Source of the DNA: Polyangia bacterium | Lineage (GTDB): Bacteria; Myxococcota_A; Polyangia; Fen-1088 | DNA: 64,000 bases | Assembly (NCBI GenBank): GCA_036268875.1 | Contig: DATATI010000020.1 | Coordinates: 1-64,000, forward strand | Reading direction: 5' to 3' | Part shown: positions 46,994 through 64,000 of the stretch, in pieces | Numbering within the stretch: the first letter of the stretch is position 1 | Layout: each line of letters starts with the position of its first letter | The notes under the pieces: generated by a model | What the model was told of the DNA's origin: nothing | The model's database searches: none | The model's input: only the letters and a program-made list of their open reading frames with translations | Position numbers and translations under genes: made by a program

Positions 46994-47010
46994 GGCGCGG
47001 CGACGATATC

Positions 47011-47692: not shown

Positions 47693-48424
47693 ACCATGGG
47701 GTGGCGTAAAAAATCGCCGCCGCCAGCAACCCAGTGGTCGGCCCGGCCAGCCGAGCGGCCAGGAGAAACGCCGCCGCCGCGGAAAGCAAACCCGTCGCGG
47801 CGCACAACACCGCTGCGCCTTTGGAACTTCCGAAGGCCAGCGAAACCAAATAAAGCAACTCCTGCGCCATTAGCTGGTAGTGCTGCCAGATCCCGTGCAG
47901 TTCGATCAGGGCGTGCGCCAGCAGGAACTGTTGCGGTACATACAAGTGGGACCAGGACGTCGACAAAGTTGGGTGGCGTCAGCGCCCCGATCAGATTCGC
48001 CGCCGCCAAAACCGCCAGCAGGATCAAGACCAGGCCGGCGGTGGCACGCGTGGCGAACGTCTGACCGGCGCTGGTTCCACCCGTCGAATCCAGTCGGTTC
48101 CGGCGGGCCGACCGAATCGACCAGGCGCCCAGCACCGCGGCTGGTAGAACGAGCACCGCGATCACCGGCCTGAAGAAAAAAACCCCGATCCCCACCGCGA
48201 AGATGAGGCATCGCCAGACATCCAAAGCCCAAACCAATCGCGGTGCAAAGCCGCTCTGCGCCACGGCAGGTCGTCGAGGTCTAGAAGATGAAGCAGTATC
48301 GAACCGTATCCGGCGCAGGCCAGTAAGCCGCGCCAGCGTGGCGCGGCCGGCTTCGGCGAATTGTCGCACCGGCAAAGATTAACCAGAGGGCCAGCAACAG
48401 ATCGATGGTGAAACGCCGGATGCG
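47693..48424 (-). pseudogene. Membrane glycosyltransferase (GT39/ArnT-like) remnant
   Basis: Hydrophobic fragments in several frames read as the N-terminal half of a polytopic lipid-linked sugar transferase: FTIDLLLALWLIFAGA, GYGSILLHLLDLDDLPW, VWRCLIFAVGIGVFFF, LVLILLAVLAAANLIGAL, then YVPQQFLLAHALIELHGIW and AGLLAAAIFYATP. Several frame changes are needed between them. The match ends at about 47693, where an epimerase begins in mid-protein, so a deletion seems to have joined two broken genes. The start abuts the stop of the glycosyltransferase at 48425. Confidence 0.65.
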
Positions 48425-49645
48425 TCAGGCCAACTCCCGGGTCAGTGCGGCCACCAACGCGTCGCCGGCCTCCCGCCAGGTCCAGCGCTCGGCGCGAGCG
48501 CGGGCCAACTTGCCCATGGTGTACAACTGGTCGCGGTCGGCAGCGCAGGCCCGCAACCGTGCCACCAGGGCGTCCACGTCCCGCGAAGGCACCAGCCAGC
48601 CGTCGTGGCCGTCGGTGATGGATTCCGGCCCGCCGCTGGCCGGCGTGGTAATGACCGGCGTTCCGCAACACATGGCTTCTTGAATAACCAGGCCGAAGCC
48701 GTCGCCCAGTGTTGGAAATGCCAGCACATCGGCGGCCCGGTATTCTTCACCCAGCTTGGGCTTGGGCACATACGCCACGTGCTCGAACAGGCCAGCGTAG
48801 TCTTGCAGAAATCGTTGCGACAGTCGCATGGGACCCACCAATCGTAGTCGAGCGTCTTTGATGGCAGCTTTCTTCCAGGCTTGCAAAAGGTAGTGCGTCC
48901 CTTTTCCCAACCCTTGTAGACCGACCGACAAGACTGTGAAGGGCCCCTGATTTGGCTTCTCCTTGGGCGCAAAATCAAAGACAGGAAAGCCGTAAGGATT
49001 GACGATGACGGGAACTCTCACGTCGGCATTTTCCAAAGAACGGCGAGTGTGATTGGAGGCCACTGAGATGACCGTGGCCAAAGCCAGCTCGGAGTCTTTG
49101 CGGTGTTTTTTCCATTCCGGCGTGACAACCGGCCCGGTGGTTGCGGCGCCGGCCCATTGTCTTTGCTCGGTCTTCCACATTTGTTCGACCACCCGGTAGT
49201 GCGGAATGGGCAAATCCCACACTCGGCCAATCGCGCGCGCCGAGGCGTGCTGGAACGTTCGCAAGGCGGCGTCCTCGTATGCATAGATCGCCGTGATGTC
49301 TTTGGACCACGAGACGCGCGCCACCGCTTCGTCGTGTGCCACGAAGATCGCATCGTATAAGCTTGGGCTGTCAAGGCCGATCGATTCTGCGAGCAGGGCC
49401 ACCAGGCGCGCGCCAGCCTCGACGGGAAACAGCGATCGCAGGCTATCATGGTGAATATCCAGCACCCGATTGCGCCACACCGGACCCAGCGGCGACAGGA
49501 AATGCAGCGCCCGCCCCAGTAGTGTCGACTGACCGGCGATGATTCCGGTCATGTAAACGCCCAGCTTCCCGTGTCGATCCAGAGCAACGGCCGTGGCATT
49601 GGCCACCGCTGCCGCGTGCGGATGACTAATCAGAAAGGACGTCAA
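48425..49645 (-). CDS. Glycosyltransferase family 4, paralogue B
   Basis: A 406-residue GT-B protein, equal in length to and clearly paralogous with the one at 38571-39791: SHPHAAAVANATAVAL, YEDAALRTFQ, NPYGFPVFDF, GLGKGTHYLLQAWKKAA, YRAADVLAFPTLGDGFGLVIQEAM and GGPESITDGHDGW. The start ATG 49645 overlaps the upstream gene's stop by 4 bp. Codon use is slightly less GC-biased than in paralogue A. Confidence 0.92.
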   Translation of the reverse strand: MTSFLISHPHAAAVANATAVALDRHGKLGVYMTGIIAGQSTLLGRALHFLSPLGPVWRNRVLDIHHDSLRSLFPVEAGARLVALLAESIGLDSPSLYDAIFVAHDEAVARVSWSKDITAIYAYEDAALRTFQHASARAIGRVWDLPIPHYRVVEQMWKTEQRQWAGAATTGPVVTPEWKKHRKDSELALATVISVASNHTRRSLENADVRVPVIVNPYGFPVFDFAPKEKPNQGPFTVLSVGLQGLGKGTHYLLQAWKKAAIKDARLRLVGPMRLSQRFLQDYAGLFEHVAYVPKPKLGEEYRAADVLAFPTLGDGFGLVIQEAMCCGTPVITTPASGGPESITDGHDGWLVPSRDVDALVARLRACAADRDQLYTMGKLARARAERWTWREAGDALVAALTRELA

Positions 49646-51066
49646 GCGCCCTTACTGGTCGGCTCCGGCAAGCGGCTCTTTAGCGGTACGCGACTCGGCG
49701 AGGGGTGCAACAAGGGCCAGATCTGGACCAATTCGCTCAAGATAAATCCGCAGCCGGTGAAATAGAGTGCCTGCCAGATATGATCAAACGAAAGGTTCCC
49801 GTAAAAATTCAGCAGCGCGTATGCGAGCGCGGCGCCGGTGGCCGCCCGGCGCCTGGCCCGTCTGAAGAAGTTGGCCGCGCGGAGGAGCGCGACCAACAGA
49901 CCGAACCGGACTAACCAGATCAAGATGTAACCGACAGCGCCAAGCTCGATGAGATACCGCCCCACTTCCATTTCGCTCTCGTACTCACCAAAGCCGACGC
50001 CAAACAGAATGCGGAAGTTCTGCTGCATCCCGGTACCCAACCCCAATACGGGATAATTCAGCTTGGCCAGGGAGTACGGCGGAAAGAGGGTATAGATCTC
50101 TTCAAAGCGATCGCGGGTATCATCCGAATCGAAGCGGTCCATGACCCCCTGGAGAGAGTCCGGGAAAATGTAGAGCACCATCATGATGGCCAAGGTCCCG
50201 CCGATAATCACGCGGCGCCCCACCGCCGTGAACAAAAAGCCCGCTTGTTGAGCCACCAGCGCCAGCAGGGCCAAGCCGACCACGAACGGCGCCCGCGAAC
50301 CGGACATCGGCAGCGCCGCCGCCGACAGCATGGCGGTGGTGGTGGCGATGGTGCGCGCGCGGCGGTTGGGATCGGCCAGACCCAAAGACAGCAGCAGCGG
50401 CGGCACCAACACCACGAAGTTGGTGAAGCCGGTAATAAACGTAAATGTCGAGGACACGCGTGCGCGGCCGGTGCTTCCGACCTCGAAGGCAGCAACCTCG
50501 TTTCCGGCCTGGACGGCATAGGTGTTCGTGGCGCTGGTGGCGGGCGAACCAAACTGGACCATCGCGAAGATGGCCACCACCGCCGAAACCCACGCCATGG
50601 CCACCATCCCGCGACGCCGAACCGTGGGCGTCAAGACGACATTAGCCACCACAGGCACGGCGATCCACCACAGCCAATAGGCACGGAGGCCGAGGATTCC
50701 CAGGACAAACGACTCTCGAAGTCCTGTGTTGATGGCCTCCAGCAAGGAAACCGCGATTGCCAGACCCAGGATCTTGTCGAAGGGATGGAACAGCACCTTC
50801 ATCACCTGCTTGACCCGGGGATTCATCGGGAAGGTGACCAGGCCATAAATCAGGACGATGTCTTTGAGAAAGTAGAAGGCCTCGCCAGGAATGAACGACA
50901 GATACTTGCGGCCCAAGCCCTCGAAGCAGATCGAACAGAAAAGCAGGGCGAACCAGCGCGATTTTTTCCTCTCCAGCCGTCCTTGCTTGGTCAGAACGGC
51001 CACTTTGTTGAGCACCGGGCGGTTGCCGAGGACAATCGGCGGCTGCGAAACAGCGGGTACAGACAT
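49642..51066 (-). CDS. Wzy-like O-antigen polymerase/ligase family membrane protein
   Basis: A ~474-residue polytopic inner-membrane protein with about ten hydrophobic segments. The region GSRAPFVVGLALLALVAQQ and the loop ending FGVGFGEYESEMEVG, followed by YLIELGAVGYILIW, resemble the Wzy_C/O-antigen ligase superfamily; the long periplasmic loop lies before it. It is likely the repeat-unit polymerase. ATG 51066 is preferred, 2 bp after the upstream stop; a TTG at 51072 would overlap it. Confidence 0.82.
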   Translation of the reverse strand: MSVPAVSQPPIVLGNRPVLNKVAVLTKQGRLERKKSRWFALLFCSICFEGLGRKYLSFIPGEAFYFLKDIVLIYGLVTFPMNPRVKQVMKVLFHPFDKILGLAIAVSLLEAINTGLRESFVLGILGLRAYWLWWIAVPVVANVVLTPTVRRRGMVAMAWVSAVVAIFAMVQFGSPATSATNTYAVQAGNEVAAFEVGSTGRARVSSTFTFITGFTNFVVLVPPLLLSLGLADPNRRARTIATTTAMLSAAALPMSGSRAPFVVGLALLALVAQQAGFLFTAVGRRVIIGGTLAIMMVLYIFPDSLQGVMDRFDSDDTRDRFEEIYTLFPPYSLAKLNYPVLGLGTGMQQNFRILFGVGFGEYESEMEVGRYLIELGAVGYILIWLVRFGLLVALLRAANFFRRARRRAATGAALAYALLNFYGNLSFDHIWQALYFTGCGFILSELVQIWPLLHPSPSRVPLKSRLPEPTSKGA

Positions 51067-51068
51067 CG

Positions 51069-53714
51069 TCAACGTCCCAGAAGGAGCATCCGACTGCGCG
51101 CCGTTTCTTCCAGCTGCGCCTTGTGGTCGTTCATGCGTTTGATCGCTGCCGCGATATCAGAGTTTTGGGGGGCTTGATCCTGAGCTTCCTGCATGGCTTT
51201 CAACGCGTCGTCATTTCGCGAAATCGATTCATAGTATTGCGCCAGATTCATCCACAGACCGGCGTTGTGGCTGTCTTGATTGATCGCCGCCCGGAACTCC
51301 GTGATGGCCGCCTTGCTCTCACCCATTGCCGCGGCTAGCCGCGCGCGAGCATTGTGAACGCTGGCGGTCGACGCTCCTGCGTGAAACAACGCGGTCTCCA
51401 ATCCTTCGATGGCCGGCTGGGCACGCGACCACTTCTGAGCGCTCATGATGACCTGCACCCGCCGATCTTGGAGCGACAGATCGTACGGATCGACGGCGGC
51501 CCCCTGATCCAAAATATCCAGCGCGCGGTTGAGGTCGCCGGCACGGAGCGCCAGCTCGGCGCGAAGCAAGAATGCGCGAGGTTGATTGGCGCCTGCCCGA
51601 TCAAGCTGGGCCAGGTCTTGGTTGGCGAGGTCCGGCTTACCATCCTCAAGATCAAGCTCCGCCCGCAAAAGCAACGCATCCGTGGAGGTGCCTGGTCCCA
51701 TTGGGACGAAATCTAACACCTTCCGCGCGCCGCTCCGGTTGGATTTGCTGAGCAGCAGATTGGCAATTCGGATCAACCTGTCGGAATCGCCTCGGGCCAA
51801 GGTGGCCATTTCCTCGGGACGCGCGCCGGATCGCCAGGCTTCCTCCAAGATGAAACTGGTCAGGACCGGACGCGTGGACATCGCGGTGGTCCATTCGTTG
51901 AGGGCTTGCTGACGCTTGCCCAGCGACCACAGTGAACGGCCGATCTCGGCGTGCACCTCAGGACAGTTGGGGCAAAGCAACAGCGCCCGATTGAGGACCG
52001 CCATCCGCGGCGAACGCCGGGTATCAGCCTGGATCAGAGGTTCGGTCGCTCCCTGCTGGAGGAAATAGTAGTAGTCAAAAGGATGCGCGGCCTCTGCGTG
52101 CAACATAACGGCGCGGCGCTCGGCCAGCGTCGTGGTGCCGCGTAGCCGGGCGTCAAAATCGGCGCTGGCCGGACGAGCCAACGCAATCACGCCGAACAGC
52201 AGGCCGGACCCAGCCACGCTGGCCACGATCACCGCGTGGCGTTTTCGCAGCCTTCGTCCGCTCCACTCCTTCGTCCGGCCCAACAGTGATCCAAGAAGGA
52301 CAGAGAACGGCAGCAGCACGCCGAGGGTTTCGAGACCAAAGTCGACCACGCTGTGGACCAGCGCCGCGACCAGACCGCATCCCAGGGCCAGTTCGACCTT
52401 GTCGGCTCGGCGAAATTTCCAGATCTGGCGCACCAGCAACGCAAGACAGACAACGATGGCGAGCTCCCCCAGCCAACCGGTGTCGATGAGAAACTGCAGT
52501 GGCTCGTTTTCGACGAGAGAGAACCGCGCAGAGATGGGAACCTCGAGAGTCCGCACGGTCGGGTAAGCCCGATCGAACGCGCCTCGGCCAATCCCCAGGG
52601 GGTGAGCGAAGAGCAGCTTGAGACTGTCGCGCCACAACTGAAATCGCATCTCCTGGCTGAGGCTGGACTGACTGAACTTGGCCAGAATCTGACTGGCGCC
52701 CAGGCTCAAGGCCACCAGCGCGCAAACCGCGGCCACCAGGGCAAAGGAAAGCCAGGTGCGGCGGCGAGGGGGCCGTATTTCCCCTTCCGCCTGTTGGGTG
52801 CGCGGGTAGAAGCCCACGAACAACGCAGTGGAGATGCCGAGGCCGAGAACGCCGCCGCGCGACAGCGTTCCGACGGCGCCGGCGGCCACGAAGACACCGG
52901 CGGCGATCCAGCCGACGCGATTGATGACGCTCGATTTGGCGAGCGCCAAGGCCAACGAAGCGAAGAACGCCAGCTCCAGGAATTCTGCGGTGTGGTTCGG
53001 ATTGATGAAAGGGCCGTTCAGAATCCCGCGGCTGCCAGGATAGATGCCGTAGATGCGATCTTCTCCGAGAATTCGATGACCCACCCCGACCACCACCGAG
53101 GCGATCCCTGACACGACGATGGCCCGCAGCAACAGGTAGCGGGATGAACGTCCCGACATCACGTGGGCCGAGATGATCACGGTGGCCATGGCAGCCGCCG
53201 CTTGGCCCAGGCACAACCAGGTAGCGGGAGGATCAAGGCTCAAAGGGCGGAACGCGTTTGAAACACCGATCAGATCGGCGGCCGCCGGATCCAGGCGGTT
53301 CGCCAGCGCAGCGGGGAGCGGAAGGCTCTCCACGAACGGCAACAGAACGAATACCAGGCACGCAACGGCTGCTGTGAAGGAAAAGCGAATCGGCACACCG
53401 GAGCCGAGTTCGTTGGTGACCACCAACCCTAACGCCACCAAGGTCAGAGCGAAGGCCCCCAGGGCTGTCGAGCGATGAACGGCGCCCGTTGCCAAAGGAG
53501 CGGCCGCCACCACAAATGCGAGGAGGCCCAAGCCCAAGAATGTCCCCAGCCGTGCAATGCCGTTGGCGCCCCTGTGTTTACCTTTGCCCTTGGCCTTGTT
53601 GGATCGCCGACGGCGACTGGCCGAATCCGTTGTCAGACCGGATCGGGAGGCGGGCATGTCTGGAGACGGGCCGCCATTCGTCGGTGTCCCGAGCCCGTGC
53701 GTTTCGCTAACCAT
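51069..53714 (-). CDS. O-antigen ligase/polymerase domain protein with C-terminal TPR repeats
   Basis: An 881-residue protein. A basic, Ser/Arg/Lys-rich cytoplasmic N-terminus (~1-50) leads into about ten to twelve membrane segments up to ~residue 505. The Wzy_C-like signature is INPNHTAEFLELAFFASLALAL plus TLSRGGVLGLGIS and PLGIGRGAFDRAYPTV. The last ~350 residues are helical TPR-type repeats (for example NRALDILDQGAAVDPYD and NAGLWMNLAQYYESISRNDDALKAMQEA, read in parts). This layout is common in exopolysaccharide loci of Deltaproteobacteria-related bacteria. It precedes a second Wzy-like protein. Confidence 0.88.
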   Translation of the reverse strand: MVSETHGLGTPTNGGPSPDMPASRSGLTTDSASRRRRSNKAKGKGKHRGANGIARLGTFLGLGLLAFVVAAAPLATGAVHRSTALGAFALTLVALGLVVTNELGSGVPIRFSFTAAVACLVFVLLPFVESLPLPAALANRLDPAAADLIGVSNAFRPLSLDPPATWLCLGQAAAAMATVIISAHVMSGRSSRYLLLRAIVVSGIASVVVGVGHRILGEDRIYGIYPGSRGILNGPFINPNHTAEFLELAFFASLALALAKSSVINRVGWIAAGVFVAAGAVGTLSRGGVLGLGISTALFVGFYPRTQQAEGEIRPPRRRTWLSFALVAAVCALVALSLGASQILAKFSQSSLSQEMRFQLWRDSLKLLFAHPLGIGRGAFDRAYPTVRTLEVPISARFSLVENEPLQFLIDTGWLGELAIVVCLALLVRQIWKFRRADKVELALGCGLVAALVHSVVDFGLETLGVLLPFSVLLGSLLGRTKEWSGRRLRKRHAVIVASVAGSGLLFGVIALARPASADFDARLRGTTTLAERRAVMLHAEAAHPFDYYYFLQQGATEPLIQADTRRSPRMAVLNRALLLCPNCPEVHAEIGRSLWSLGKRQQALNEWTTAMSTRPVLTSFILEEAWRSGARPEEMATLARGDSDRLIRIANLLLSKSNRSGARKVLDFVPMGPGTSTDALLLRAELDLEDGKPDLANQDLAQLDRAGANQPRAFLLRAELALRAGDLNRALDILDQGAAVDPYDLSLQDRRVQVIMSAQKWSRAQPAIEGLETALFHAGASTASVHNARARLAAAMGESKAAITEFRAAINQDSHNAGLWMNLAQYYESISRNDDALKAMQEAQDQAPQNSDIAAAIKRMNDHKAQLEETARSRMLLLGR

Positions 53715-53751: not shown

Positions 53752-54387
53752 TCAGAAAAGTCGTTCCTCGACGACTACCACATCCCCCGGCAACACGGGA
53801 ATGTTCGGGTACCGTCCCTCGCTGATGTCGGCGACGGGGAAGGTGCGCGTTTCGACCTTCCCCGAAACCTCACGCCGCAAGGTCACAGTGTTCTTGTCGG
53901 CGATCGAGGTAAAGCCCCCCGCCTGCGCGATGGCGTCGACGATGGTCATATTGGGAAAGAAATCCACGGAGCCGGGCCTGGTCACCTGGCCCAGCACGGA
54001 GATCTTCCGGCTGTTCCAGCTTTTGATCATGACCGACACTTGCGGGTCCCGGAGATAGCCGGCCTTCAGCTTTTGCACCAGAGCGGCCTGAACCTCGTTG
54101 ATCCGCATTCCCGCCACCTTCAAGCGGCCCGCCAGCGGAAAATCGATCGTTCCCTCGGCGGAGACTCGGTAGGATCCCGACAGTTCAGTTTCGCCAAAGA
54201 CGCGAACGTCGAAGACGTCATCGAATCCGAGTCGATCTTCGGGCGGGGGAAGACCAATAATGCCTGCCGCAGACTGCTGTCGATTCTTCTGATGAGAGCA
54301 ACCGCCCAGACTGGCAATTGCGAACAACACCAGCAGCAATTGCCGAGACCAAGGACGCACAGGCCCCGCCAGAGACATCACGCGCAC
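53752..54387 (-). CDS. Polysaccharide export (OPX/Wza-like) lipoprotein
   Basis: A 211-residue lipoprotein with signal peptide and lipobox LGGC, then the export (PES) domain with YRVSAEGTIDFPLAGRLKVAG and one SLBB domain (ISVLGQVTRPGSVDFF, DAIAQAGGFTSIADKNTV). It lacks the long C-terminal part that forms the outer-membrane helical barrel in E. coli Wza. In Myxococcus such short OPX proteins work with a separate beta-barrel porin, and the next gene upstream here encodes a beta-barrel. The start is ATG 54387, 1 bp after that gene's stop. Confidence 0.92.
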   Translation of the reverse strand: MRVMSLAGPVRPWSRQLLLVLFAIASLGGCSHQKNRQQSAAGIIGLPPPEDRLGFDDVFDVRVFGETELSGSYRVSAEGTIDFPLAGRLKVAGMRINEVQAALVQKLKAGYLRDPQVSVMIKSWNSRKISVLGQVTRPGSVDFFPNMTIVDAIAQAGGFTSIADKNTVTLRREVSGKVETRTFPVADISEGRYPNIPVLPGDVVVVEERLF

Positions 54388-54388
54388 G

Positions 54389-55753
54389 TTAATAGATTAC
54401 GCCAACGCGAGCGAAGATTTGCTGTTTTAGATAGCTTGCGCCCACCGGGCCGTTGGGGTTGGAGCCAGCTTGGTTATCCAAAAGCGAATACCCCACGCCA
54501 AAGTAAAGCCAGCCCTTCGGGTGATAGTCCGCCAATGCGCCAACCTGAAGGAAGTTGTCGGTACGGCTCGACGCCGTGAATTGAAATGCACGACGCTCAT
54601 ATCGACCGCTCAACGATGCCACCACCCGTCCGGCGATCTGCTGCTGAATCCAGGCGGTCACAGCGTCGATATTGTAGAAATTGCCGACGATGGAGTTCTG
54701 GAAATCGTGGTGGTAACCCAGCCCCAACGAGCTGAAGAACGTGGGCGTGACGCTCACTTCGGCATTGGCAGAGAGGTGACCGGCAATTCCTTCTGGATTT
54801 GGGCCGTCCGCATAAAAGGCATTTGCATAGCCGGCGTAGAGGTTCACGGACGTCTTTTGCGTAACAAGGCCACGCAACCCAGCGACCACTCGCATCGGGT
54901 ATGAATCATGCTTCACAAAATCACTCGGCGAGGCGCCTGTTCCGGCCGTTGGCGCACTGGCATTGGGGTTCAGATACGTGATGTAACCCTGGGCTGCCTG
55001 CACAAAAAGCGCGGTCTTGGGTAGCCATTTCCAACTGACATCAACAGCCAGTTCCTGGAACAGCGAGTCGGCGAAATTGTAGCTGCTGGCAGCGTTGAAC
55101 GCGTCATAGATGTTCGAATAGCGAAGGATTCCGTCGAGGCGTCCGCCTCCGGGGGCCCAATGAAGTTCAGCGGCGCCGAAATTGGAATAGTGAATCAACG
55201 ATTCAGATGGCGCTGGGCTGCCAACATAAGGCGGATCCTGGGCGCGAACGAAGTAGTCGCGAAATACGAGGCTGAGCACCTGACGGGAACTGAAAACCAA
55301 TTGACCATCGGCAGTAGGCAGAAATCCTGGCTGATCGGATACTTTTTTGCCCATCGCGGCGCCGGTCTGATCCGGTTGTTCCGCATTCGAGAGGTAGTGG
55401 CGATATCCGGCGGTCGCCTCCAAGTTGTAGAACACGCCCGACGGAGCCACGCCGGCGCGGGTCGCGTTGGTCAGCCCAAGATAGGGAAGGACCAACACAA
55501 CGGGAGATCCGACCACTGCGTTTCCCTTGTCGCCGTAAAAAACGTTGGTGTCGTAGCCTCCCTCGACACCAACACCGGCGTGCAAAACAGCGCTGTCGCT
55601 CAGCTGCATGCCCGTTCCCTTCCCCAGCGGGGAACGGGCAGGCAAGTTGGTGTAGCTCAGTGAGACGTCGCCCGCCTGCTGCGCGAAACCACCACGCGAC
55701 ACGCCAAGCGCGGCACAGCAAGCGAGGATCTGCAGTGGTCGGCGAATGGTCAT
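54389..55753 (-). CDS. Outer-membrane beta-barrel protein (Wzp-like polysaccharide porin)
   Basis: A 454-residue protein with a signal peptide ending at AFAQ-like FAQQAG (~25). The mature part alternates polar and hydrophobic residues in ~10-residue strands with aromatic girdles (for example YNLEATAGYRHYL, LHWAPGGGRLDGILRYS, SSLGLGYHHDFQ) and ends in an aromatic residue (VGVIY), as expected of a BAM substrate. Size is consistent with a 16-18-stranded barrel. Paired with the short OPX gene it fits the Wzp-type porin that completes the outer-membrane channel. Confidence 0.85.
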   Translation of the reverse strand: MTIRRPLQILACCAALGVSRGGFAQQAGDVSLSYTNLPARSPLGKGTGMQLSDSAVLHAGVGVEGGYDTNVFYGDKGNAVVGSPVVLVLPYLGLTNATRAGVAPSGVFYNLEATAGYRHYLSNAEQPDQTGAAMGKKVSDQPGFLPTADGQLVFSSRQVLSLVFRDYFVRAQDPPYVGSPAPSESLIHYSNFGAAELHWAPGGGRLDGILRYSNIYDAFNAASSYNFADSLFQELAVDVSWKWLPKTALFVQAAQGYITYLNPNASAPTAGTGASPSDFVKHDSYPMRVVAGLRGLVTQKTSVNLYAGYANAFYADGPNPEGIAGHLSANAEVSVTPTFFSSLGLGYHHDFQNSIVGNFYNIDAVTAWIQQQIAGRVVASLSGRYERRAFQFTASSRTDNFLQVGALADYHPKGWLYFGVGYSLLDNQAGSNPNGPVGASYLKQQIFARVGVIY

Positions 55754-55829
55754 GGATAGAAAGATTTGAAGATGGGTGAGGTTAGAGAATCGGAGCGGTT
55801 AGAGAGCCGAGCGTTCACAGCGGCTAGAG

Positions 55830-56453
55830 TCAGGGAGAGATGGATTGATAGTTGCTGGCCGGCGGAGGCCGATCGACAGGAGTGACCGGAATCGGCGGCT
55901 GAGTGGGGTCGGTTTGCGGAATGTTCGGATCGATTTCGACGTCGACCCGGGTCGCTCCGACAAAGCTCAAATCCTCGCCGATGCAATTCTCCGCCTCCGC
56001 CCCTAGAACCAGGACCTTCTGGTTGACGATGGTGAGCCGGGTGAACTCATGCGTACGTGCACCTTCATCGGCACGCGCGATGCTCTCCTGAAGGGCGGTC
56101 ATTGACTGCTCGGCCAGGTTCAAGTTGACCTTGCCTTGCACCAGCTTGTCCTTCACGCAGTTGAGCTTGATGATGTCCTTCTGATTTTTGGCCGTGTCTT
56201 CGAGCACCTGAATGCGTTTCAGGGTGTCGTTCATGGTCTGAAAATAGGCTTGCCCCTGGTTCAGCATTTCCTGGGGGGTCAAGGTCGGCAGCTGCTTCAC
56301 GGAAACGTCGACCTGGCCACCGGCCGCGGGAGGCGTGGCCACCGGAGTGGCAGCGGGTACTGGCGCAGGCGGCGGCGGGGTACCGGGCCCCTGGGCAAAG
56401 ACCGTGCTGGTGACAAGCAGCAACGGAAGCAGCAACGGCGGGATCTTTGCCAC
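55830..56453 (-). CDS. Secreted two-cysteine protein of unknown function
   Basis: A 207-residue protein not recognised by name. An N-terminal signal peptide ends near VFAQG (~21), then a Pro/Ala-rich linker of ~30 residues. A helical core follows with Cys99 in KLNCVKDKL and Cys157 in AENCIGEDLSFVG, likely a disulphide in the periplasm. It ends in a Pro-rich tail. GTG 56453 is the start, with AAAGGA nine to ten bases upstream. It is the first gene after the consensus promoter and precedes the beta-barrel by 76 bp, so it is probably part of the export apparatus. Confidence 0.8.
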   Translation of the reverse strand: MAKIPPLLLPLLLVTSTVFAQGPGTPPPPAPVPAATPVATPPAAGGQVDVSVKQLPTLTPQEMLNQGQAYFQTMNDTLKRIQVLEDTAKNQKDIIKLNCVKDKLVQGKVNLNLAEQSMTALQESIARADEGARTHEFTRLTIVNQKVLVLGAEAENCIGEDLSFVGATRVDVEIDPNIPQTDPTQPPIPVTPVDRPPPASNYQSISP

Positions 56454-56517
56454 GGTTTTGGGTCCTTTCTCAGCTGCCGGAACAGAGTGAAATCAAATAC
56501 TTACAGGTTTGGCAGGG

Positions 56518-56546
56518 ATTATAGGCACGTGGTACGGATGTGTCAA
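56518..56546 (-). promoter_or_regulatory. Perfect sigma-70 consensus promoter of the exopolysaccharide operon
   Basis: On the minus strand TTGACA (56546-56541) and TATAAT (56523-56518) are separated by exactly 17 bp, the full consensus. The start would be near 56511, giving a ~58-base leader to GTG 56453. It lies in the only sizeable gap between the Glt-like block and the exopolysaccharide genes, so it probably drives the whole minus-strand train. Confidence 0.8.
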
Positions 56547-56557
56547 CGTCAGACGTT
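56545..56557. promoter_or_regulatory. 13-bp palindrome at the exopolysaccharide promoter (operator-like)
   Basis: AACGTC and GACGTT flank one central base, forming a perfect inverted repeat at 56545-56557. It overlaps the last two bases of the -35 box and ends directly against the stop codon of the upstream gene. A dimeric regulator bound here would touch RNA polymerase, as repressor or activator. No cognate regulator was identified. Confidence 0.5.
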
Positions 56558-57976
56558 CTACTGAGAAGCTGTGAAGGCGAAGGGATACGACACATCCACC
56601 GAACCACCGGAAGGCGCCGGGAACCTCCAGCGCGCCACCAGCGATTTGATGCAGCTCGACACTTCGGCATCACCCAGTGTGTCTTGTTCGATGTCCACAC
56701 CTGAGACGGTGCCAGCCGCGGTAATGGTCCAGTGCAGGACCACTTTTCCACTCAGTTGAGGGTTCCGTTTTAGGGCTCGGTCATAACAGGCCTTGATGGC
56801 GCCGAGGCGCTGCTTGACCTCTTTGGTCACCACGCTGGGATCCAAGGAGCCATCCACGGCCGGTGGCTCACTCTTCACGATGCCTGAAACCCGCTTTTCG
56901 GTGGCGGCCTCGCCGGTTCCGCCGCCGGCGATGCTGCCGCCACCACGCAATCCGCCAACGGTGGCCACCCGCCCCGATCCGTTGCCGCCAGTCTTGATGC
57001 CGTGCAGCTGATCGTTGCCGCTGGCGACGCCGAGGCCAGTCACGCCCTGGAACGCCTTTTCCTGATCGCGATCGACGTCGCCTTTTCCGAGAACGTCGGC
57101 GATGGAGCCGCTAGCGTCGGTCTTGGCGCCCAGCAACTTCAGCAAGCCGGTCGATTTCACTTGGTCGGCGATGCGGGCCCGGCGCTCGGCGTCCGCGCGC
57201 GCCTTCTCCTCGGCCAATTTGGCCTTTTCTTCGGGCGTCAGCTCTTTTTTGGGAGCGGGAGCAGCCTTCTTCTCTTGCGCGACCTTCTTTTCAGCCTTCT
57301 TCTCTTCGGGCTTGTCCTCGGCCTTCTTCTCGACCGGCTTCTCCGGGGGCTTCTCGACCTTCTTGATAACCATCTGCACGAATCGGTCGGGGATGGCCTC
57401 GATGTCGGGCTTACGTGGCCAGTCGACATTGCGAAGATAAATGACCAGCAAAAGGTGCAGCAGGAATGACGCCACGGCGATGGTGGTGAAAAACCAATCG
57501 ATGTCAGAGGTCAGCGACCCGCGCACCGACGCTGGAAGCTGCGGCCGCGGCTGAGGCGGTGGGGGCGTGACGAACTGGAACAGGATCGTCATGTCGCCGA
57601 CGGTGATCTTGCCGCGCGAACGCTCGTCGAGAGGCAGCACCCAGCCCGGACCGCGCTTCTGGATCTTGCCGGTCTGCTTCAGCTGGGCCAGCGAGATGAT
57701 CTCGTTGCCCACGGCGATGCGCGCGTCCATGCCGTCGGAAAAGTGCGCGATATAATGATTGCCGGTCATCTCGAACAGCAGCCAGTGGCGTGGCAATGCG
57801 TCCGACGGCACGACGAACATGTTCTTGGCCGACTGACCGATGGTGATGCTCTCGCGCTTGCGGACCAGACGCTCCTCAACAATGCGTCCACCCTGGATGA
57901 TCCCCATGCGGAGGATCTTGATCTTGGGGGCGGCACCGGCCTGTTGCGGACTGCGAGGGGCTACCTGGCTTGCCAT
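56558..57976 (-). CDS. FHA-like/TonB-like envelope protein with AgmX/PglI C-terminal domain (GltG-like)
   Basis: A 472-residue bitopic protein. Residues ~30-145 look FHA-like (RESITIGQSAKNMFVVP, SRGKITVGDMTILFQF). One membrane helix lies at ~163-182 (IAVASFLLHLLLVIYL), then a Lys/Glu/Ala/Pro-rich periplasmic stalk of ~90 residues, a Gly-rich linker, and the AgmX/PglI tail with AIKACYDRALKRNPQLSG and GKVVLHWTITAAGTV, a TonB-like fold with two Cys (ACYD, SSCIK). In Myxococcus such proteins link the inner-membrane motor to outer-membrane partners of the gliding machinery. A function in gliding here is inferred. Confidence 0.88.
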   Translation of the reverse strand: MASQVAPRSPQQAGAAPKIKILRMGIIQGGRIVEERLVRKRESITIGQSAKNMFVVPSDALPRHWLLFEMTGNHYIAHFSDGMDARIAVGNEIISLAQLKQTGKIQKRGPGWVLPLDERSRGKITVGDMTILFQFVTPPPPQPRPQLPASVRGSLTSDIDWFFTTIAVASFLLHLLLVIYLRNVDWPRKPDIEAIPDRFVQMVIKKVEKPPEKPVEKKAEDKPEEKKAEKKVAQEKKAAPAPKKELTPEEKAKLAEEKARADAERRARIADQVKSTGLLKLLGAKTDASGSIADVLGKGDVDRDQEKAFQGVTGLGVASGNDQLHGIKTGGNGSGRVATVGGLRGGGSIAGGGTGEAATEKRVSGIVKSEPPAVDGSLDPSVVTKEVKQRLGAIKACYDRALKRNPQLSGKVVLHWTITAAGTVSGVDIEQDTLGDAEVSSCIKSLVARWRFPAPSGGSVDVSYPFAFTASQ

Positions 57977-57993: not shown

Positions 57994-58365
57994 TTAGAAG
58001 GGAGCGCGCGAAACGCTGTCAAGAATCTTGGGGATCACGTCCTGCTTCAGTTCCTGCCAGTCATAGTTGATGCTGGATTTCTGGTAGAAAAAGAACGCCT
58101 CGGGTTTCTGAATCTTGCCTTCGATGCGGATCTCCTCGGTGATGCGGTAGACCTTCTTGCCCCCGGCCCCGCGCTCGACTTTGACCTTGGGCGCATCGCT
58201 GCCGCCAGCGCCACCAGCTCCGGCGTTCGCCGCTGGTCCGGGCGCGGCTGGAGCGGCGGGAATCTTCTTCGGGGACGGCGTCTGAGCGAAGGCGGGCGCC
58301 GTCAGGAGCCAGGCCACTGCTGCCACGCCTACGGCCAAGCACTTGAATGATTGGTTCATGGCCAC
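57994..58365 (-). CDS. Small periplasmic protein (GltF-like position)
   Basis: A 123-residue protein with a signal peptide ending APAFAQ (~28), an Ala/Gly/Pro-rich linker and a compact domain, EEIRIEGKIQKPEAFFFY followed by INYDWQELKQDVIPKIL. I know this type only as a partner of AgmX/PglI and Glt TPR genes in myxobacterial relatives; no biochemical role is known to me. It sits 17 bp before the FHA-TonB-like gene and 11 bp after the TPR gene, clearly in one operon. Confidence 0.78.
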   Translation of the reverse strand: MAMNQSFKCLAVGVAAVAWLLTAPAFAQTPSPKKIPAAPAAPGPAANAGAGGAGGSDAPKVKVERGAGGKKVYRITEEIRIEGKIQKPEAFFFYQKSSINYDWQELKQDVIPKILDSVSRAPF

Positions 58366-58376
58366 CCGATTTTGCC

Positions 58377-59516
58377 TTATTTCCCTGCTGCAGGGGGTGG
58401 GGCCGGCTGAGCCGGCTTCATGATGCCGTTGCCGGTGCCCGCCGGGGCCGGCGTTCCCGCTGGGGCGCCAGGGGCAGGTGCGCCGCCGACGGGAGCGCCA
58501 GCTTTCTTGGCATCAGTAGCGGCCTTTTGCGCGGCCCGCTGCCGTTCACGCTCCTCGTTCTTCTTCTGCCGCTCGATGCGCTTCTCTTCTTTTTTGATCG
58601 CGTCCTGCGCCTCGACGATGTAGCCGTCGGACGGGTCGGTCGATGGAATGTTCCCGCCCATCATCTGCCGGTAGCGCTGAAAATATTGAATCGCGGTGTT
58701 CTCTTTCGCCGGTAGATCCATGTTGGGCATCTTGTCAGCGTCCAGGTACAGGATGCCGAGGTTGAACACCGCGTCGGCATAATTGGGAAAGAGCTGGAGG
58801 GCTTTTTGGTACTCGACCAGCGCGCGGTCATATTCCTTGTTGCCACGGTAGGCGTCGCCCAAGTTCAGGTGAGCCTTGGCAAAGCCGGGCTGAAGCTGCG
58901 CCGCCCGCTCGAGCACGGGCGCCGCGTCCTTGTAGTTCTTGGCGGTCAGATATTGGGCGCCGAGGTTGCTCCACAGGATGGCGTTGTCCGGACGCGCTTC
59001 GGCCGCTTTCTTGAAAAGCTCGATCGCTCCCGGCGTGTTCTTCTGATCGACCTCTAGAAATCCCAGCATCTGGTAGATCTCCGACTTCTCCGCGTCGGAG
59101 GCACCATTGGCCTGCATCATCTCCCACAGCTTCTTCGTCCACTCGTACTTGTGCAGCTTGTAATAGGCCTTGGCCATCACCAGCATCGCCGGCGTGTAGC
59201 GTTCGTTCTTGTTCAGCGCCGCTTTGGCCTGCGCCACCGCTTGATCGTAGCGACCGGCGCGCAATAGTTGGTCGGCTTGCTCAGTCTCGGCGGTGGGGAT
59301 CACCGCCGGCGGCGGTTGCCGGCGCTTGTGGGGCGCGTCCGGGCTGGCGGCCGCGGGTGCGGCGGCGGCGGCGGGCGCGGCGGGCGCGGCGGCGGATGCG
59401 GGTGGCGCTGGTTTCTGCGCCAGGGCCGATGGAGGTACCAGCAACGATGCCAAGACCAGGGCGCCCCCCGTGATGGTCAACCGTTGGCTCCCCATTCCCG
59501 TCCCCACCCGCGTCAT
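58377..59516 (-). CDS. TPR protein (AglT/GltE-like)
   Basis: A 379-residue exported protein. The signal peptide ends near ALAQ (~34), an Ala/Pro linker covers ~35-70, and about six TPR repeats run to ~290 (ADQLLRAGRYDQAVAQAKAAL, AILWSNLGAQYLTAKNYKDA, AKAHLNLGDAYRGNKEYDRAL). A charged coiled coil (Lys/Glu/Arg) and a Gly/Ala/Pro tail close the protein. Length and order resemble AglT (GltE). ATG 59516 overlaps the upstream gene's stop by 4 bp. Confidence 0.85.
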   Translation of the reverse strand: MTRVGTGMGSQRLTITGGALVLASLLVPPSALAQKPAPPASAAAPAAPAAAAAPAAASPDAPHKRRQPPPAVIPTAETEQADQLLRAGRYDQAVAQAKAALNKNERYTPAMLVMAKAYYKLHKYEWTKKLWEMMQANGASDAEKSEIYQMLGFLEVDQKNTPGAIELFKKAAEARPDNAILWSNLGAQYLTAKNYKDAAPVLERAAQLQPGFAKAHLNLGDAYRGNKEYDRALVEYQKALQLFPNYADAVFNLGILYLDADKMPNMDLPAKENTAIQYFQRYRQMMGGNIPSTDPSDGYIVEAQDAIKKEEKRIERQKKNEERERQRAAQKAATDAKKAGAPVGGAPAPGAPAGTPAPAGTGNGIMKPAQPAPPPAAGK

Positions 59517-62500
59517 GGGTACTCTAATCCGATCTTCTCGTCTTTGATGAAGGGGAACTCGTCGGGCAAGTACTTGGACAAATTCTCGCGCGCCTTCTTG
59601 ACGTACTCGTTGGTCACGCCCAGTTGCGAAGCGCGCGCCAAGGTGTCCTTCCAGCGCTTCTTCGCCTCGTCCTCGACCGGCGTGACGAACTGGTAGACAG
59701 CGTCCTTGTATTGACCCTCGACCATGCCGCAGTCGTCGGGGTTGGCCTTGCACGCCATCTTGGCCAGCTTCTTGACGTCATCGGGCGGGTTATTGGCCGC
59801 CTTGATCAGCTTCTGGGCGAACTCGTAGTAGATGTCGCCGCTACGCAGGAACGCCGCTAACGTCCAGGTGGCGTCTTTGTAATTCCAGATCTTCTGGTAC
59901 TCGTCGTTCAGCGCCTTTGATTCCGCGGTGAACGAATCGAACGTCTTCTTGATCTGCTCCGGCTTGCTGCCGAACTTCAGTTCCTTCTTCTGGAAGGCCT
60001 TGAATTTCTCCTCGAGGATCAGGAAGTCAGCCTTGGCGGCGAAGCCAGCCGCCGGCGTCGCGGCCGGCAGCTTGCGAGAGATGAACTCGTCGCGCACCCG
60101 CTTGTACGCAGCCAACGTGGCGTTCTTGTCGCGCGATGACTGTTCGGTGATCACCGCCTGTTTCATGTAGGCCTGGACCACGAACTCGCCCGCCGGCGGC
60201 TGCGCGCTGTACTTCTTGATGAAGTCTTTCAAGCAGGCGGACTGCTTGACGTTGTCGTGCGCCTTCTCGTAGGCGTTGCAGGCGAAGAAGTACGCCTGGG
60301 CGCTGTCCTGCGGCTTGTCGGAGATCGCCTCGGAGTATTTCTTGTACAGGTCCGCGGCGCGCAGGTACTGCTGATCGTTGTCCAGCAGCGAAGCCGCCAA
60401 CCCCAGTGCTTCCTTGCGATGTTCGGACCCGGCGAACGTCGGGTCCTGGGCCACGGTCAGATAACCCTTCACCGCCTGATCGAACTCGAAGAAACGATAG
60501 TGGTTGCGCGAAGAGTTCCACAGCGCTTCCTTGCCCCACTCCGAATCCGGGTACGACGAGTACAGGCGCTCGTAGCACTTGGTGGCCTCGCCGAACTGGA
60601 ACAGCTTTTCGTAGATCACGCAGGCGTTGTTCAGGGCCGTGGGCGCGCCCGGATCCTTCGGGTTGGCGTTGACCACGTCGATGAGGTCCAGGGCCAAGCC
60701 GACGTCCAGTTCGGTGGAGATCTTGCTGGGCTTGGGCGCCTCCCCTGGCTTCGTCGGCGCAGTGGAGATGCCGGTGACCGTCGCGATACCACCGGTGCTT
60801 TCGCGGCAGACCGTCAACTCTTTGTTGGTTCCCTTCTCTTCGTTCTCCATCGACAGCTGCAGACGCTTGGTGATGATGGTGGTCTTCACCGATGCCTTGA
60901 TCTGGGCGATGCGCTCCAGATAAGGCGCCGCCATGGGCGATTTGCCGCAAGGCGATCCGCTGAACTGGTCGGCGACGCTGAGCAGCTTGCCCAACGCGCA
61001 ATCCTTCTGCTCTTCGTCCTGAACGTTGAAGTCGATAAAGTAGGTCTGCAAGATCGCGTCGTAGGCCTTGAAGCCAACCTCCGGCTTCGATCCGCAGTAA
61101 AGTTCGGTGATCTCGCCCAGGCGCTTCCGGGCCTCGGGCCAGTTGTGGTAGCGCAGGTTGATGACCGCCGCCGCGTACTTCAGATCCGACACGCGATCGT
61201 TCTTGATGTACGTGACGTACCAGTCGATGGCCTCGACGTACTTGGTGTAAATCTCCGGCATCGGCAGCGGGCTCACCGGCGGCTTGGTGTTTTTCTCGTC
61301 GGGGATGGGCGGGTCCTCGATCTTCTTGTCCCGCTTCATCTCGTCGATGATCTCTTCGTAGGCCTTGATCATCCGGAACGAAGCGTCTTCTTGATACCGG
61401 TTGTCCAGCTGCGAATCGCGGACCGCCTGGTACGCGACGATCGCCTGGGGCATCTGACCCGAATAAAACAGGGCGTCGGCGTAGAACGCCGAGAACTCAT
61501 AGCTGCGCTTCGAGTTCGGGTAGGCAGCCAAATACTTTTCGTAAAGCTCGGCGGCGGTGCGGTAGAGGAGCTTGCACTCGTCCATCTTCTTCGTGTCTTT
61601 GGGCGTCTCCAGCGCCTTGGTCTTGCACGCTTGCGCGCCGGCGTGGACGTTGGTGGCGGCGGTCAGCAGCGCGTCTTCCGCCAGTTGCTGGGCGGCCGCC
61701 AACGCTTCCGGGTTTTCTCGGTTCTTCTGGTACCAATCGCTGCCCTTGGTGTAGTTGCGGCCCAGCGCTTCGCGCTCTTTCGCCGCCTGCAACAGGTTGC
61801 GGTCGCGTTCATAGCTGCGGATGATCTTGTCCTGCACCTTGGGCGCGTCGGTGTAGTACGGCCATTTTTGCAGGATGACCTTGTAGACAGCGACGGCGTC
61901 GGAGTACTTGGTGGAGTCAAAGTAGATGTCGCCCAGGCGCTGGAAGACCTCGCGCACGTGCGGCTCGTCCTCGCGGCCTTTGTAGAACTCCTGCGCGCGT
62001 TGCAGGCCGTTGATCGGATCGGGCAGCGAATCGCCGTCCCAATCAGGCTCGGAGAAGCTGACGCCCAAGTACTGGATGGCCTCGGGCCGCAGATCCGACC
62101 CCACCTTTTGACCGGCCGCCTTTTTCGCGTCGGCGTACTTGACCAGGTTGTCAAACTCGCGCACCGCCTCCGGGAAGCGGTTGTCGCGATAATACGACCA
62201 GGCCAGCTTGTAAAGCGCGCGGTCGTAATACGGCGAATCCTTGAAATCGAGCACCTTCCTGAAGGCGGCGATCGCCAGCTTCAGCTCGTTCGGGTTGTCG
62301 AAGTGAAACTCGCCGATACGGGTCCAGGACTCGGGGATGAACTTCGAACCTTTCCGGACCGGCGTGCAGTCCTTGTAGGACTGCTCGTCGCCTTTGGTTT
62401 GGTTCGCCGGCGGATCCAGCGGCTTGAATTGGTTTTCGCAGACCAGGGCCAGCAGCGCCTGCTTGGCCTCCGCTTCCTGCCCCATCTCGCCGAGACAGAA

Positions 62501-63097
62501 CCCTAGCAAGTAATAGGTGGCGTCCAAAAAGCGATAGCTGGGGAATTCGGTCAGCAGGCGTTTGTACAGGCTGATGGTCGGCGTGTAGTCCACTTTGGGC
62601 GGCGGCGTGGTGGGCGGGTTCGCCGATTCGATGGCCTTCTTGTACATCTCGTCCGCGTCCAGGAAATCTTCGGCGGACCTTTCGTAATAAAGCTCGGCCA
62701 GCCGGAACATGGCGTCCGGCGTCCAACGCTTGTCGTTCGGGTAGCGTTGCAAGAACGCTTCGAACACGGCGATGGCGTCACGCCGACGGTCGCGCGCCTC
62801 TTTCTCGTTTAGGTTGATCTGCGCGTCGTACTTGGCGTTGATCTCCTTGATCTTGTCGGCATAGGCGCGCTTCAAAACCATGCGCGCGGTGCCGCGATAC
62901 TCGGCGACCATCTCGGAGAAGTGCTGAACGTCCTTGGTCAGCTCGTCCAGCATGCGCGCATCGACCGGCGCCGCCGTTGAAGACGCCGCCGACGCCGTCA
63001 CGGCCCTCGCGACGCTGCCGGTGCCCATCGCCAGCGACGACGCCAATAACGCCGCCACCGCCGTGCCGCTCATCCACCCACGCCGGCGCCGCCTCAC
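59513..63097 (-). CDS. Large periplasmic TPR protein (AgmU/GltD-like)
   Basis: A 1194-residue exported protein. An Arg-rich n-region and hydrophobic core (VAALLASSLAMG) form the signal peptide. Almost all the rest is helical repeats of TPR type with many aromatic and Lys/Asp positions (YPNDKRWTPDAMFRLAELYYE, LYKLAWSYYRDNRFPEAVREF, VFQRLGDIYFDSTKYSDAVAVY). Size and place next to the smaller TPR gene resemble AgmU (GltD) of Myxococcus, a periplasmic part of gliding complexes. It starts at GTG 63097, overlapping the upstream stop by 4 bp. Confidence 0.86.
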   Translation of the reverse strand: MRRRRRGWMSGTAVAALLASSLAMGTGSVARAVTASAASSTAAPVDARMLDELTKDVQHFSEMVAEYRGTARMVLKRAYADKIKEINAKYDAQINLNEKEARDRRRDAIAVFEAFLQRYPNDKRWTPDAMFRLAELYYERSAEDFLDADEMYKKAIESANPPTTPPPKVDYTPTISLYKRLLTEFPSYRFLDATYYLLGFCLGEMGQEAEAKQALLALVCENQFKPLDPPANQTKGDEQSYKDCTPVRKGSKFIPESWTRIGEFHFDNPNELKLAIAAFRKVLDFKDSPYYDRALYKLAWSYYRDNRFPEAVREFDNLVKYADAKKAAGQKVGSDLRPEAIQYLGVSFSEPDWDGDSLPDPINGLQRAQEFYKGREDEPHVREVFQRLGDIYFDSTKYSDAVAVYKVILQKWPYYTDAPKVQDKIIRSYERDRNLLQAAKEREALGRNYTKGSDWYQKNRENPEALAAAQQLAEDALLTAATNVHAGAQACKTKALETPKDTKKMDECKLLYRTAAELYEKYLAAYPNSKRSYEFSAFYADALFYSGQMPQAIVAYQAVRDSQLDNRYQEDASFRMIKAYEEIIDEMKRDKKIEDPPIPDEKNTKPPVSPLPMPEIYTKYVEAIDWYVTYIKNDRVSDLKYAAAVINLRYHNWPEARKRLGEITELYCGSKPEVGFKAYDAILQTYFIDFNVQDEEQKDCALGKLLSVADQFSGSPCGKSPMAAPYLERIAQIKASVKTTIITKRLQLSMENEEKGTNKELTVCRESTGGIATVTGISTAPTKPGEAPKPSKISTELDVGLALDLIDVVNANPKDPGAPTALNNACVIYEKLFQFGEATKCYERLYSSYPDSEWGKEALWNSSRNHYRFFEFDQAVKGYLTVAQDPTFAGSEHRKEALGLAASLLDNDQQYLRAADLYKKYSEAISDKPQDSAQAYFFACNAYEKAHDNVKQSACLKDFIKKYSAQPPAGEFVVQAYMKQAVITEQSSRDKNATLAAYKRVRDEFISRKLPAATPAAGFAAKADFLILEEKFKAFQKKELKFGSKPEQIKKTFDSFTAESKALNDEYQKIWNYKDATWTLAAFLRSGDIYYEFAQKLIKAANNPPDDVKKLAKMACKANPDDCGMVEGQYKDAVYQFVTPVEDEAKKRWKDTLARASQLGVTNEYVKKARENLSKYLPDEFPFIKDEKIGLEYP

Positions 63098-64000
63098 TTG
63101 TCTTCCTCCAAGACCTTGCGAAAGTCTTCGTCCAACGCCTTGAGCTCAAGATTCTTCTGGTTGGTCAGCTTGGTCACCGACACCGTCTTCTGATCCTTCA
63201 AGCCCCATGAAACGTCGATGATGCCGACGTCGGACTGCACCACCAGCTCGTAAAAGCGATTGGCAACCTTGTTGAACATCGCCTGGGCAAGGCCCCCGCC
63301 CAGGTTCTGCGACTCATTCACCACGCCACCCAGCTTGGTGCTGGCCGACGCCAGCTCTTCCTTCTCGCTGGCCAGGAATGTTTTCACCGTCTCCAGTCGC
63401 ACGTCGACCTGATTGTCGACCCGCTTGTCGAAATCCACCAACTGTTTGTCGATGACGTCGGCGCGCGCCAGAACGCCGTTCATGCGGTCGACCTTTTCCT
63501 GATCGTTCCAGGGCAGCCGGTACTTTGCCTTGTTCTGGATGTCCTCTTCCTGGTGCAGGAGCTCGGTTAACCGGGTGGCCTGCGCCCGCTCGGACTGGCC
63601 GGCGGCGCCGGAAGCGGCGGCCTCCCGGCTGGCGTCGGCGATCCCCTCGCGCAGCTTGTCGTGCAGCGCGCGCAGCTGGTCCAGCGCGGCCCGCATGTCG
63701 GCGACCGGACCCTGGATGTCCTCGGGCCGGATCTTCTGCTCGGCGCGCGAGCTGCGGTAATACTGCTCGACCGCCACCAGCTGCGCTTCCAGCGACTGGA
63801 TCTCCACGTTCAGATCCGATGCCTGCAGATCCATCGCTTTGAAGCTGTCGGCGATGCTCTTCTCGCGCGCCTTGATCCCTTCCTGCGTGGTGGGCAGGTT
63901 GGCCAGCTGGCGCAGCAAGGCGTCCCGTTCGATCGCGATGTGGTCCAGGCTCTTGCGCTCGTCGGGCGAGAGGATGGGATTCAGCACCGCGCGCACCTTG
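63094..64000 (-). CDS. Coiled-coil protein (5' part outside the window)
   Basis: At least 301 residues in the window, probably more, as the frame is open to the edge. It is nearly all helix with heptad-like Leu/Ala spacing (RKSLDHIAIERDALLRQLA, KAMDLQASDLNVEIQSLEAQL, ALDQLRALHDKLREGIADA) and a short beta-like C-terminus (VSWGLKDQKTVSVTKL). No membrane segment is seen in this part. It is translationally coupled to the large TPR gene (GTGA overlap), so it likely belongs to the same envelope complex. No function can be named. Confidence 0.78.
   Translation of the reverse strand, partial: KVRAVLNPILSPDERKSLDHIAIERDALLRQLANLPTTQEGIKAREKSIADSFKAMDLQASDLNVEIQSLEAQLVAVEQYYRSSRAEQKIRPEDIQGPVADMRAALDQLRALHDKLREGIADASREAAASGAAGQSERAQATRLTELLHQEEDIQNKAKYRLPWNDQEKVDRMNGVLARADVIDKQLVDFDKRVDNQVDVRLETVKTFLASEKEELASASTKLGGVVNESQNLGGGLAQAMFNKVANRFYELVVQSDVGIIDVSWGLKDQKTVSVTKLTNQKNLELKALDEDFRKVLEEDK

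Follow-up and report, generated by a model that had tools for sequence, protein, structure and literature searches.

Genes at the locus

A stretch of 64,000 nucleotides from a Polyangia bacterium (Fen-1088; GenBank assembly GCA_036268875.1, contig DATATI010000020.1, positions 1 to 64,000; hereafter the window) was examined for a cluster of Glt-like genes, related to the gliding and spore-coat genes of myxobacteria such as Myxococcus xanthus, and the polysaccharide export genes that adjoin it. Two tight gene runs were found head to tail on the minus strand, the first of which begins beyond the window end in a contig that extends to position 66209. In the order of transcription, the features are:

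Contig 65403-66209 (L004:5403-6209), beyond the window end, minus strand: secreted protein of 268 amino acids (aa), first gene of the Glt-like run
63094-64000, continuing to contig position 65391, minus strand: GltC-like tetratricopeptide repeat (TPR) protein, 765 aa (NCBIfam NF033756, E=3.7e-14)
59513-63097, minus strand: GltD-like TPR protein, 1194 aa, starting 4 bp inside the GltC-like gene
58377-59516, minus strand: GltE-like TPR protein (NF033758, E=1.9e-21), in ATGA overlap with the GltD-like stop, start codon checked
57994-58365, minus strand: GltF-like small secreted protein, 123 aa, with positional homologues in the named loci described below (E down to 3e-15)
56558-57976, minus strand: GltG-like protein, 472 aa, of the type found in M. 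xanthus cluster G4 (NF033760, E=2.4e-51; NF033768, E=4.6e-31)
56518-56546, minus strand: sigma-70 promoter, TTGACA-17-TATAAT, 12/12 consensus positions, heading the export operon
55830-56453, minus strand: secreted protein, 207 aa, predicted three-helix bundle with two invariant cysteines (C99, C157)
54389-55753, minus strand: outer-membrane beta-barrel, 454 aa, WzpB/EpsX/ExoB type (weak match to PF10082, BBP2_2)
53752-54387, minus strand: short outer-membrane polysaccharide export (OPX) lipoprotein, 211 aa (PF02563, Poly_export, 4.7e-22; PF10531, SLBB, 6.3e-13)

The four open reading frames (ORFs) from OPX to GltG-like lie where an earlier reading made from the sequence alone (the sequence-only reading) had placed them. 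That reading described a GltD/E/F/G-like set ending at 56558, and these identities hold, but the set was incomplete, as the GltC-like and 268-aa genes also belong to it. The run is thus ordered 268-aa, GltC, D, E, F and G-like, with intergenic gaps of -4 to 17 bp, and contains the clustered GltC, GltD, GltE and GltG homologues of a Glt/Nfs core complex. GltD of M. xanthus is 1191 aa (PMC3169522), and a GltC-like homologue was found in the same place in every intact named locus. The GltG-like protein has a degenerate FHA-like N-terminus, a proline/lysine-rich linker and an AgmX/PglI TonB-like C-terminal domain (NF033768). The 268-aa protein, a secreted, Ala/Pro-rich coiled-coil protein that opens every intact G4-type cluster examined, has no match in Pfam or NCBIfam; it was considered as a GltA/B barrel, an identity rejected on the lack of a family match and its coiled-coil/Ala-Pro appearance.

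The export unit

The gene for the 207-aa protein starts 104 bp past the GltG-like stop, and the barrel gene follows after 76 bp and the OPX gene after 1 bp. The lipobox LGGC at Cys30 of the OPX protein is invariant in an alignment of 10 sequences and, as the SLBB_2 domain ends at residue 206 of 211, leaving no room for an outer-membrane helix, the protein is of the D1D2 type. The pair has the features of a composite OPX/beta-barrel translocon (Schwabe 2022; Saidi 2022), namely an OPX lipoprotein of no more than 280 aa with PES and SLBB domains and no C-terminal outer-membrane helix, and an adjacent gene, separated by 1 bp, for an 18-strand barrel. The AlphaFold2 model of the barrel (pLDDT 82, pTM 0.81) has 18 long strands, each of 13 or more residues, the number described for EpsX/ExoB/WzpB, and in Foldseek it matched generic outer-membrane barrels with low TM-scores and no specific porin. 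In the available parts of the literature, EpsX/EpsY is the only pair for which interaction and mutual stabilisation of an OPX protein and its barrel are shown (PMC9601211).

Neither Pfam nor NCBIfam has a family for the 207-aa protein, and its AlphaFold2 model gave no significant Foldseek match, only helical bundles. An alignment of 32 sequences of this family has six invariant columns, two of which are cysteines. In the model, three helices are confidently predicted (residues 60-90, 94-126 and 130-158); C99 opens helix 2 and C157 closes helix 3, and this placement, well suited to a disulphide, suggests that the protein is probably disulphide-bonded. A second, distant gene of the family (27% identity) is present on another contig of the same genome (C1:177580-178143; L204:12539-13147), away from any OPX match. 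Relatives in one genus (g2) have weakly similar matches to the 207-aa family and no barrel match.

A promoter separates the two units

The promoter had been predicted to lie no more than 12 bp past the last Glt-like stop, and the distance is 11 bp, the stop being at 56558 and the -35 hexamer starting at 56546. The 6.15-Mb genome holds no other perfect TTGACA-(16-18)-TATAAT match (1 match, against 0 for a reversed-pattern control). Promoters matching at least 10 of 12 positions were found in the 350 bp preceding the 207-aa gene at 22 of 46 loci, where shuffled sequences predict 0.33, though many of these loci are close kin and so not independent; none was found upstream of 30 gltG-like or 32 barrel genes. 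Near-consensus promoters are kept at the same place across families, which is unusual for a GC-rich genome.

As the position of the promoter before the 207-aa gene is conserved, the three export genes most likely form their own transcription unit. The earlier proposal that the two-cysteine protein, barrel and OPX form one export operon is borne out by this promoter and by the 207-aa gene staying with the barrel gene when the Glt genes are displaced. Assignment of the 207-aa protein to the Glt block, from its adjacency to gltG, was set aside on the same two observations.

Conservation of the linkage

The linkage was sought in 97 genomes, comprising the window genome and relatives from its class, and collinear same-strand pairs were counted. 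Presence was called by E-value and is therefore distance-dependent, the relatives are mostly metagenome-assembled genomes (MAGs) with broken contigs, and the match coordinates used for the pair counts and the presence-absence test were transcribed from the search output into scripts. The gltG-207 pair was found in 44 genomes (13 families), the 207-barrel pair in 54 (18 families) and the barrel-OPX pair in 55 (18 families). An OPX gene lay close downstream of a gltG-like gene in 39 genomes from 16 families, and the observed 36-39 genomes compare with about 0.9 expected by a generous chance estimate. The full order gltG-207-barrel-OPX was present in 33 genomes from 13 families. Linkage confined to this genome, which the sequence-only reading had named as an outcome that would count against it, is thus not what is seen.

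No GltG equivalog scored over its cut-off in the phylum sample, and named genomes were instead reached via a scan for MglA, their loci being defined by searches for the 207-aa protein, OPX and GltG and by annotation of the stretches. The arrangement 268aa-GltC-D-E-(F)-G-207-barrel-OPX was found in Sorangium cellulosum, Minicystis rosea, Nannocystis bainbridge and Enhygromyxa salina, and in Labilithrix, Archangium and Myxococcus MAGs; the Sorangium, Minicystis and Labilithrix loci had no separate match listed for GltF. The Hyalangium set is broken by 10 kb, holding large kinase genes, that separate gltG from the 207-aa gene; the part from GltD to OPX is found in an Anaeromyxobacter MAG, where a 5-kb gap at the same point holds FG-GAP genes. 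In Corallococcus and Myxococcus sp. CA023 the set is interrupted by contig ends, and the pieces agree.

The 268-aa gene of Archangium, Hyalangium and the Myxococcus MAG is closely preceded by mglA (2 to ~100 bp), before which mglB lies in the last of the three. The polarity GTPase, Glt paralogue and exporter genes are thus in one neighbourhood in Myxococcaceae (mglA at L195:1281-2362, with mglB, L194:3116-3709 and L192:5002-5685). In the window genome, obg occupies the place of mglA upstream of the cluster.

Phylogeny of the OPX and GltG-like proteins

In an OPX tree, built without two long misaligned rows, all 12 OPX proteins linked to G4-type clusters fell on one side of a branch with 100/100 support, apart from 18 other OPX proteins that included copies from the same genomes. 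Likewise, the 12 G4-linked GltG proteins were all within a branch of 17 rows (97/95), apart from Glt/Nfs-type sequences that included the true Myxococcus GltG and a full-length GltG encoded on another contig of the window genome (C79). These trees indicate that the association is old and mostly vertical. Together with the order conserved in 13 to 18 families and in named genera of both Polyangia and Myxococcia, the single OPX clade upholds the earlier suggestion of co-inheritance, and the Glt-like cluster and the exporter have been inherited together since ancient times.

The GltG tree also indicates that the Glt-like block is a paralogue of the gliding machine and not identical to it. The window protein scored 175 bits against the 650-bit equivalog cut-off of NF033760, which true Myxococcus GltG passes with 1096 bits, and it lies in the separate G4 branch, not in the Nfs/Glt branch. 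On the cut-off and the tree, a gliding GltG identity was rejected for the 472-aa protein. A separate Glt-type cluster in the same genome (C79:175000-194900; L203) encodes a full-length FHA-GltG of 714 aa (423-425 bits), and this cluster may be the one with a true gliding or Nfs role.

Correspondence with M. xanthus

In the available parts of the literature on M. xanthus, MXAN_1922 is the gltD homologue of cluster G4, the function of which is unknown (Luciano 2011, PMC3169522), and MXAN_1915 (WzaB) is an orphan OPX protein located 1.016 Mb from the biosurfactant polysaccharide (BPS) cluster (Islam 2020; Perez-Burgos 2020), 204 aa long (PMC9601211) and paired with the barrel MXAN_1916 (WzpB; Saidi 2022). 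MXAN_1925 is mglA. The order of these tags (MXAN_1925 mglA, MXAN_1922 G4 gltD, MXAN_1916 wzpB, MXAN_1915 wzaB) matches the order mglA-268aa-GltC-D-E-F-G-207-barrel-OPX seen in three genomes, those of Archangium, Hyalangium and Myxococcus MAG MY1, where the OPX proteins linked to the cluster are 203-205 aa. The G4 genes span MXAN_1919-1924, and the homologue of the 207-aa protein is probably MXAN_1917. The window OPX groups with the G4-linked OPX proteins from Myxococcaceae, to the exclusion of the other copies, as expected for the WzaB/WzpB lineage.

Judged by published locus tags, length and gene order, the locus is the M. xanthus G4 Glt paralogue beside the WzpB/WzaB BPS exporter; orthology to MXAN_1915/1916 rests on these three features, as strain DK1622 lies outside the genomes searched. 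The sequence-only reading had taken polysaccharide secretion and Glt complexes to be separate loci in Myxococcus, which holds for gliding Glt and for Nfs/Exo and is wrong for G4, located by its tags a few genes from WzpB/WzaB.

A proposed transducer for an exported polymer

The arrangement is old, being shared by Sorangium, Nannocystis and relatives of M. xanthus, and for this reason the orphan exporter and the gliding-like cluster probably work together. The best inference from the analysis is a coupling in which a Glt/Nfs-type transducer would handle the exported polymer, and the overall reading, fairly likely in our estimation, is that the locus comprises the G4 orthologue and a WzpB/WzaB-type exporter, with a Glt/Nfs-type transducer unit coupled to a composite translocon unit. 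The first unit (268-aa, GltC to GltG) would encode a Glt/Nfs-like transducer that spans the envelope. The second, expressed from its own strong housekeeping promoter, would encode a composite outer-membrane translocon consisting of the 18-strand barrel as the pore, a periplasmic ring of D1D2 OPX and the three-helix 207-aa protein as a third part. A TolQR/ExbBD-type (MotA/ExbB) motor encoded elsewhere may drive the TonB-like GltG, with the TPR proteins spanning the periplasm, and the target of the transducer may be the translocon or the polymer that leaves it. The comparison is with Agl-Nfs, which moves the Exo spore-coat polymer after export (Wartel 2013, PMC3858216). A more specific version is offered only tentatively, namely that G4 might be a dedicated exporter accessory, driven by the proton motive force (pmf), that would pull on, open or move the WzpB/WzaB translocon, or its polymer; the 207-aa protein would then be the coupling component, and in Myxococcaceae MglA would set the pole.

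Several observations weigh against coupling. The Glt-like and export units have separate promoters, and co-transcription is therefore not required. The export trio lies apart from the Glt genes in one family (f12), and in Hyalangium (10-kb gap) and Anaeromyxobacter (5-kb gap). Co-occurrence, proposed earlier as a check, was seen as a presence-absence association across 55 genera, but a weak one (Fisher p 0.002-0.05 depending on the threshold, without correction for kinship). No MotA/ExbB gene for an AglRQS-type motor was found at the locus, and 14 candidates lie elsewhere in the genome. Agl-Nfs itself does not export polymer (Wartel 2013, PMC3858216). In the available text, a polar insertion in MXAN_1922 left gliding and twitching normal (PMC3169522), whereas wzaB mutants show reduced pili-dependent spreading (PMC7310880), and G4 may therefore not be needed for BPS export.

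The strong promoter of the export unit, the separation of the two units in some lineages and the absence of a motility phenotype in the G4 polar mutant (PMC3169522) would all suit a conserved neighbourhood without working contact, in which an ancestral adjacency has been kept by rare rearrangement or by shared constitutive envelope expression and the two units do separate jobs. This is credible, though less than an even chance is given to it, as the link survives across families of Myxococcia and Polyangia despite changed flanks (obg upstream in the window contig and mglBA in Myxococcaceae; Wzy and glycosyltransferase genes downstream in the window), the other OPX copies of the same genomes fall outside the G4-linked clade, and with Nfs there is already a Glt-type machine that works on a polymer after its export. 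A possibility of similar, limited weight is that the G4 block serves to maintain or assemble the barrel/OPX translocon, by inserting or positioning it, and does not move polymer. TPR-rich periplasmic proteins are typical scaffolds, the block adjoins the barrel gene, and the adjacent MglBA polarity genes in Myxococcaceae could position the exporter; however, the TonB-like GltG suggests work by a pmf motor.

That the 207-aa protein is a GltH-like part of the Glt machine, bridging it and the exporter, appears unlikely. Its gene directly follows gltG in 44 genomes from 13 families, and M. xanthus GltH is ~209 aa, but GltH is membrane/autotransporter-like (both from the available part of PMC3169522) where a three-helix bundle is predicted here, and the 207-aa gene has its own promoter and remains with the barrel, not gltG, in split clusters. 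Very improbable is that the Glt-like block serves this organism as its gliding machine, with gliding slime secreted by the exporter, slime release having been the example given by the sequence-only reading. Homology to GltD/E/F/G favours it, but the window GltG-like protein falls far short of the equivalog cut-off (175 of 650 bits) and in a branch other than Glt/Nfs, a full-length GltG-type gene is present at C79, and the M. xanthus G4 mutant glides normally, as far as the available text of PMC3169522 describes it.

If the transducer and the exporter are coupled, this would suggest that the Glt/Nfs machines originated as an accessory with which an exporter handles its polymer, and would point to a possible energy source for the outer-membrane step of the Wzx/Wzy pathway. 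Should G4 be a pmf-driven exporter accessory, the system would be a Wzx/Wzy exporter in which the outer-membrane step is energised. The literatures on G4, a cluster of unknown function, and on the orphan-like WzaB do not mention each other in the parts available, and the conserved adjacency, the conserved promoter and the third small protein give each a testable partner. The Glt/Nfs machines are reportedly proposed, by Agrebi in 2015, to derive from a capsule assembly system, and that proposal would have priority for the general link between capsule and motility.

Other polysaccharide genes in the window

Further genes for polysaccharide synthesis follow the export operon, and a co-polymerase gene lies ~40 kb away:

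51069-53714, minus strand: O-antigen ligase/polymerase-like (Wzy_C) protein with C-terminal TPRs (PF04932, 4.2e-15), 37 bp past the OPX gene
48425-51072, minus strand: 476-aa protein and GT4 glycosyltransferase, each gene overlapping the preceding one by 4 bp
44634-46190, minus strand: Wzx-like flippase (PF01943, 1.9e-8; PF01554, 1.6e-8)
11026-13662, minus strand: Wzc-like co-polymerase with a BY-kinase domain; the ORF probably begins before the true start

The 476-aa protein had no family match in the libraries searched. The Wzc-like gene is the only Wzz-domain gene above the family cut-off in the genome. Between the flippase and GT4 genes (46818-48375) are overlapping short ORFs, two of which were tested and had no family match; these are possibly decayed sugar-enzyme genes. 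A search of Rfam gave no match at 44-64 kb.

Comparison with known systems

A full-text search of the available papers found none that combines WzaB or WzpB with GltG. The locus resembles M. xanthus G4 (Luciano 2011) in the 268-aa, GltC, D, E, F and G set and in its order in Myxococcus-type genomes, and differs in having no mglBA beside the cluster in the window genome; the G4-wzpB/wzaB neighbourhood is not discussed in the available part of the G4 literature (Luciano 2011). As described in the accessible portions of the papers on WzaB/WzpB (Islam 2020; Perez-Burgos 2020; Schwabe 2022; Saidi 2022), these two proteins share with the window genes a short OPX lipoprotein, an 18-strand barrel and adjacent genes, and by gene order and length they belong to the same lineage. 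The same portions contain no mention of the 207-aa protein. WzaB/WzpB are orphan-like in M. xanthus, whereas in the window genome polymerase, glycosyltransferase and flippase genes follow directly, with Wzc ~40 kb away.

The Agl-Nfs spore-coat machine and Exo (Wartel 2013, PMC3858216) are likewise a case of a Glt paralogue acting on an exported polysaccharide, but nfs and exo are separate loci in M. xanthus by locus tag, and their GltG branch and OPX are different. The Agl-Glt gliding machinery (G1/G2/M1) has homologous GltC, D, E, F and G, and is distinguished by the GltG equivalog cut-off, which the window protein does not reach, and by the separate Glt-type cluster that the window genome carries elsewhere.

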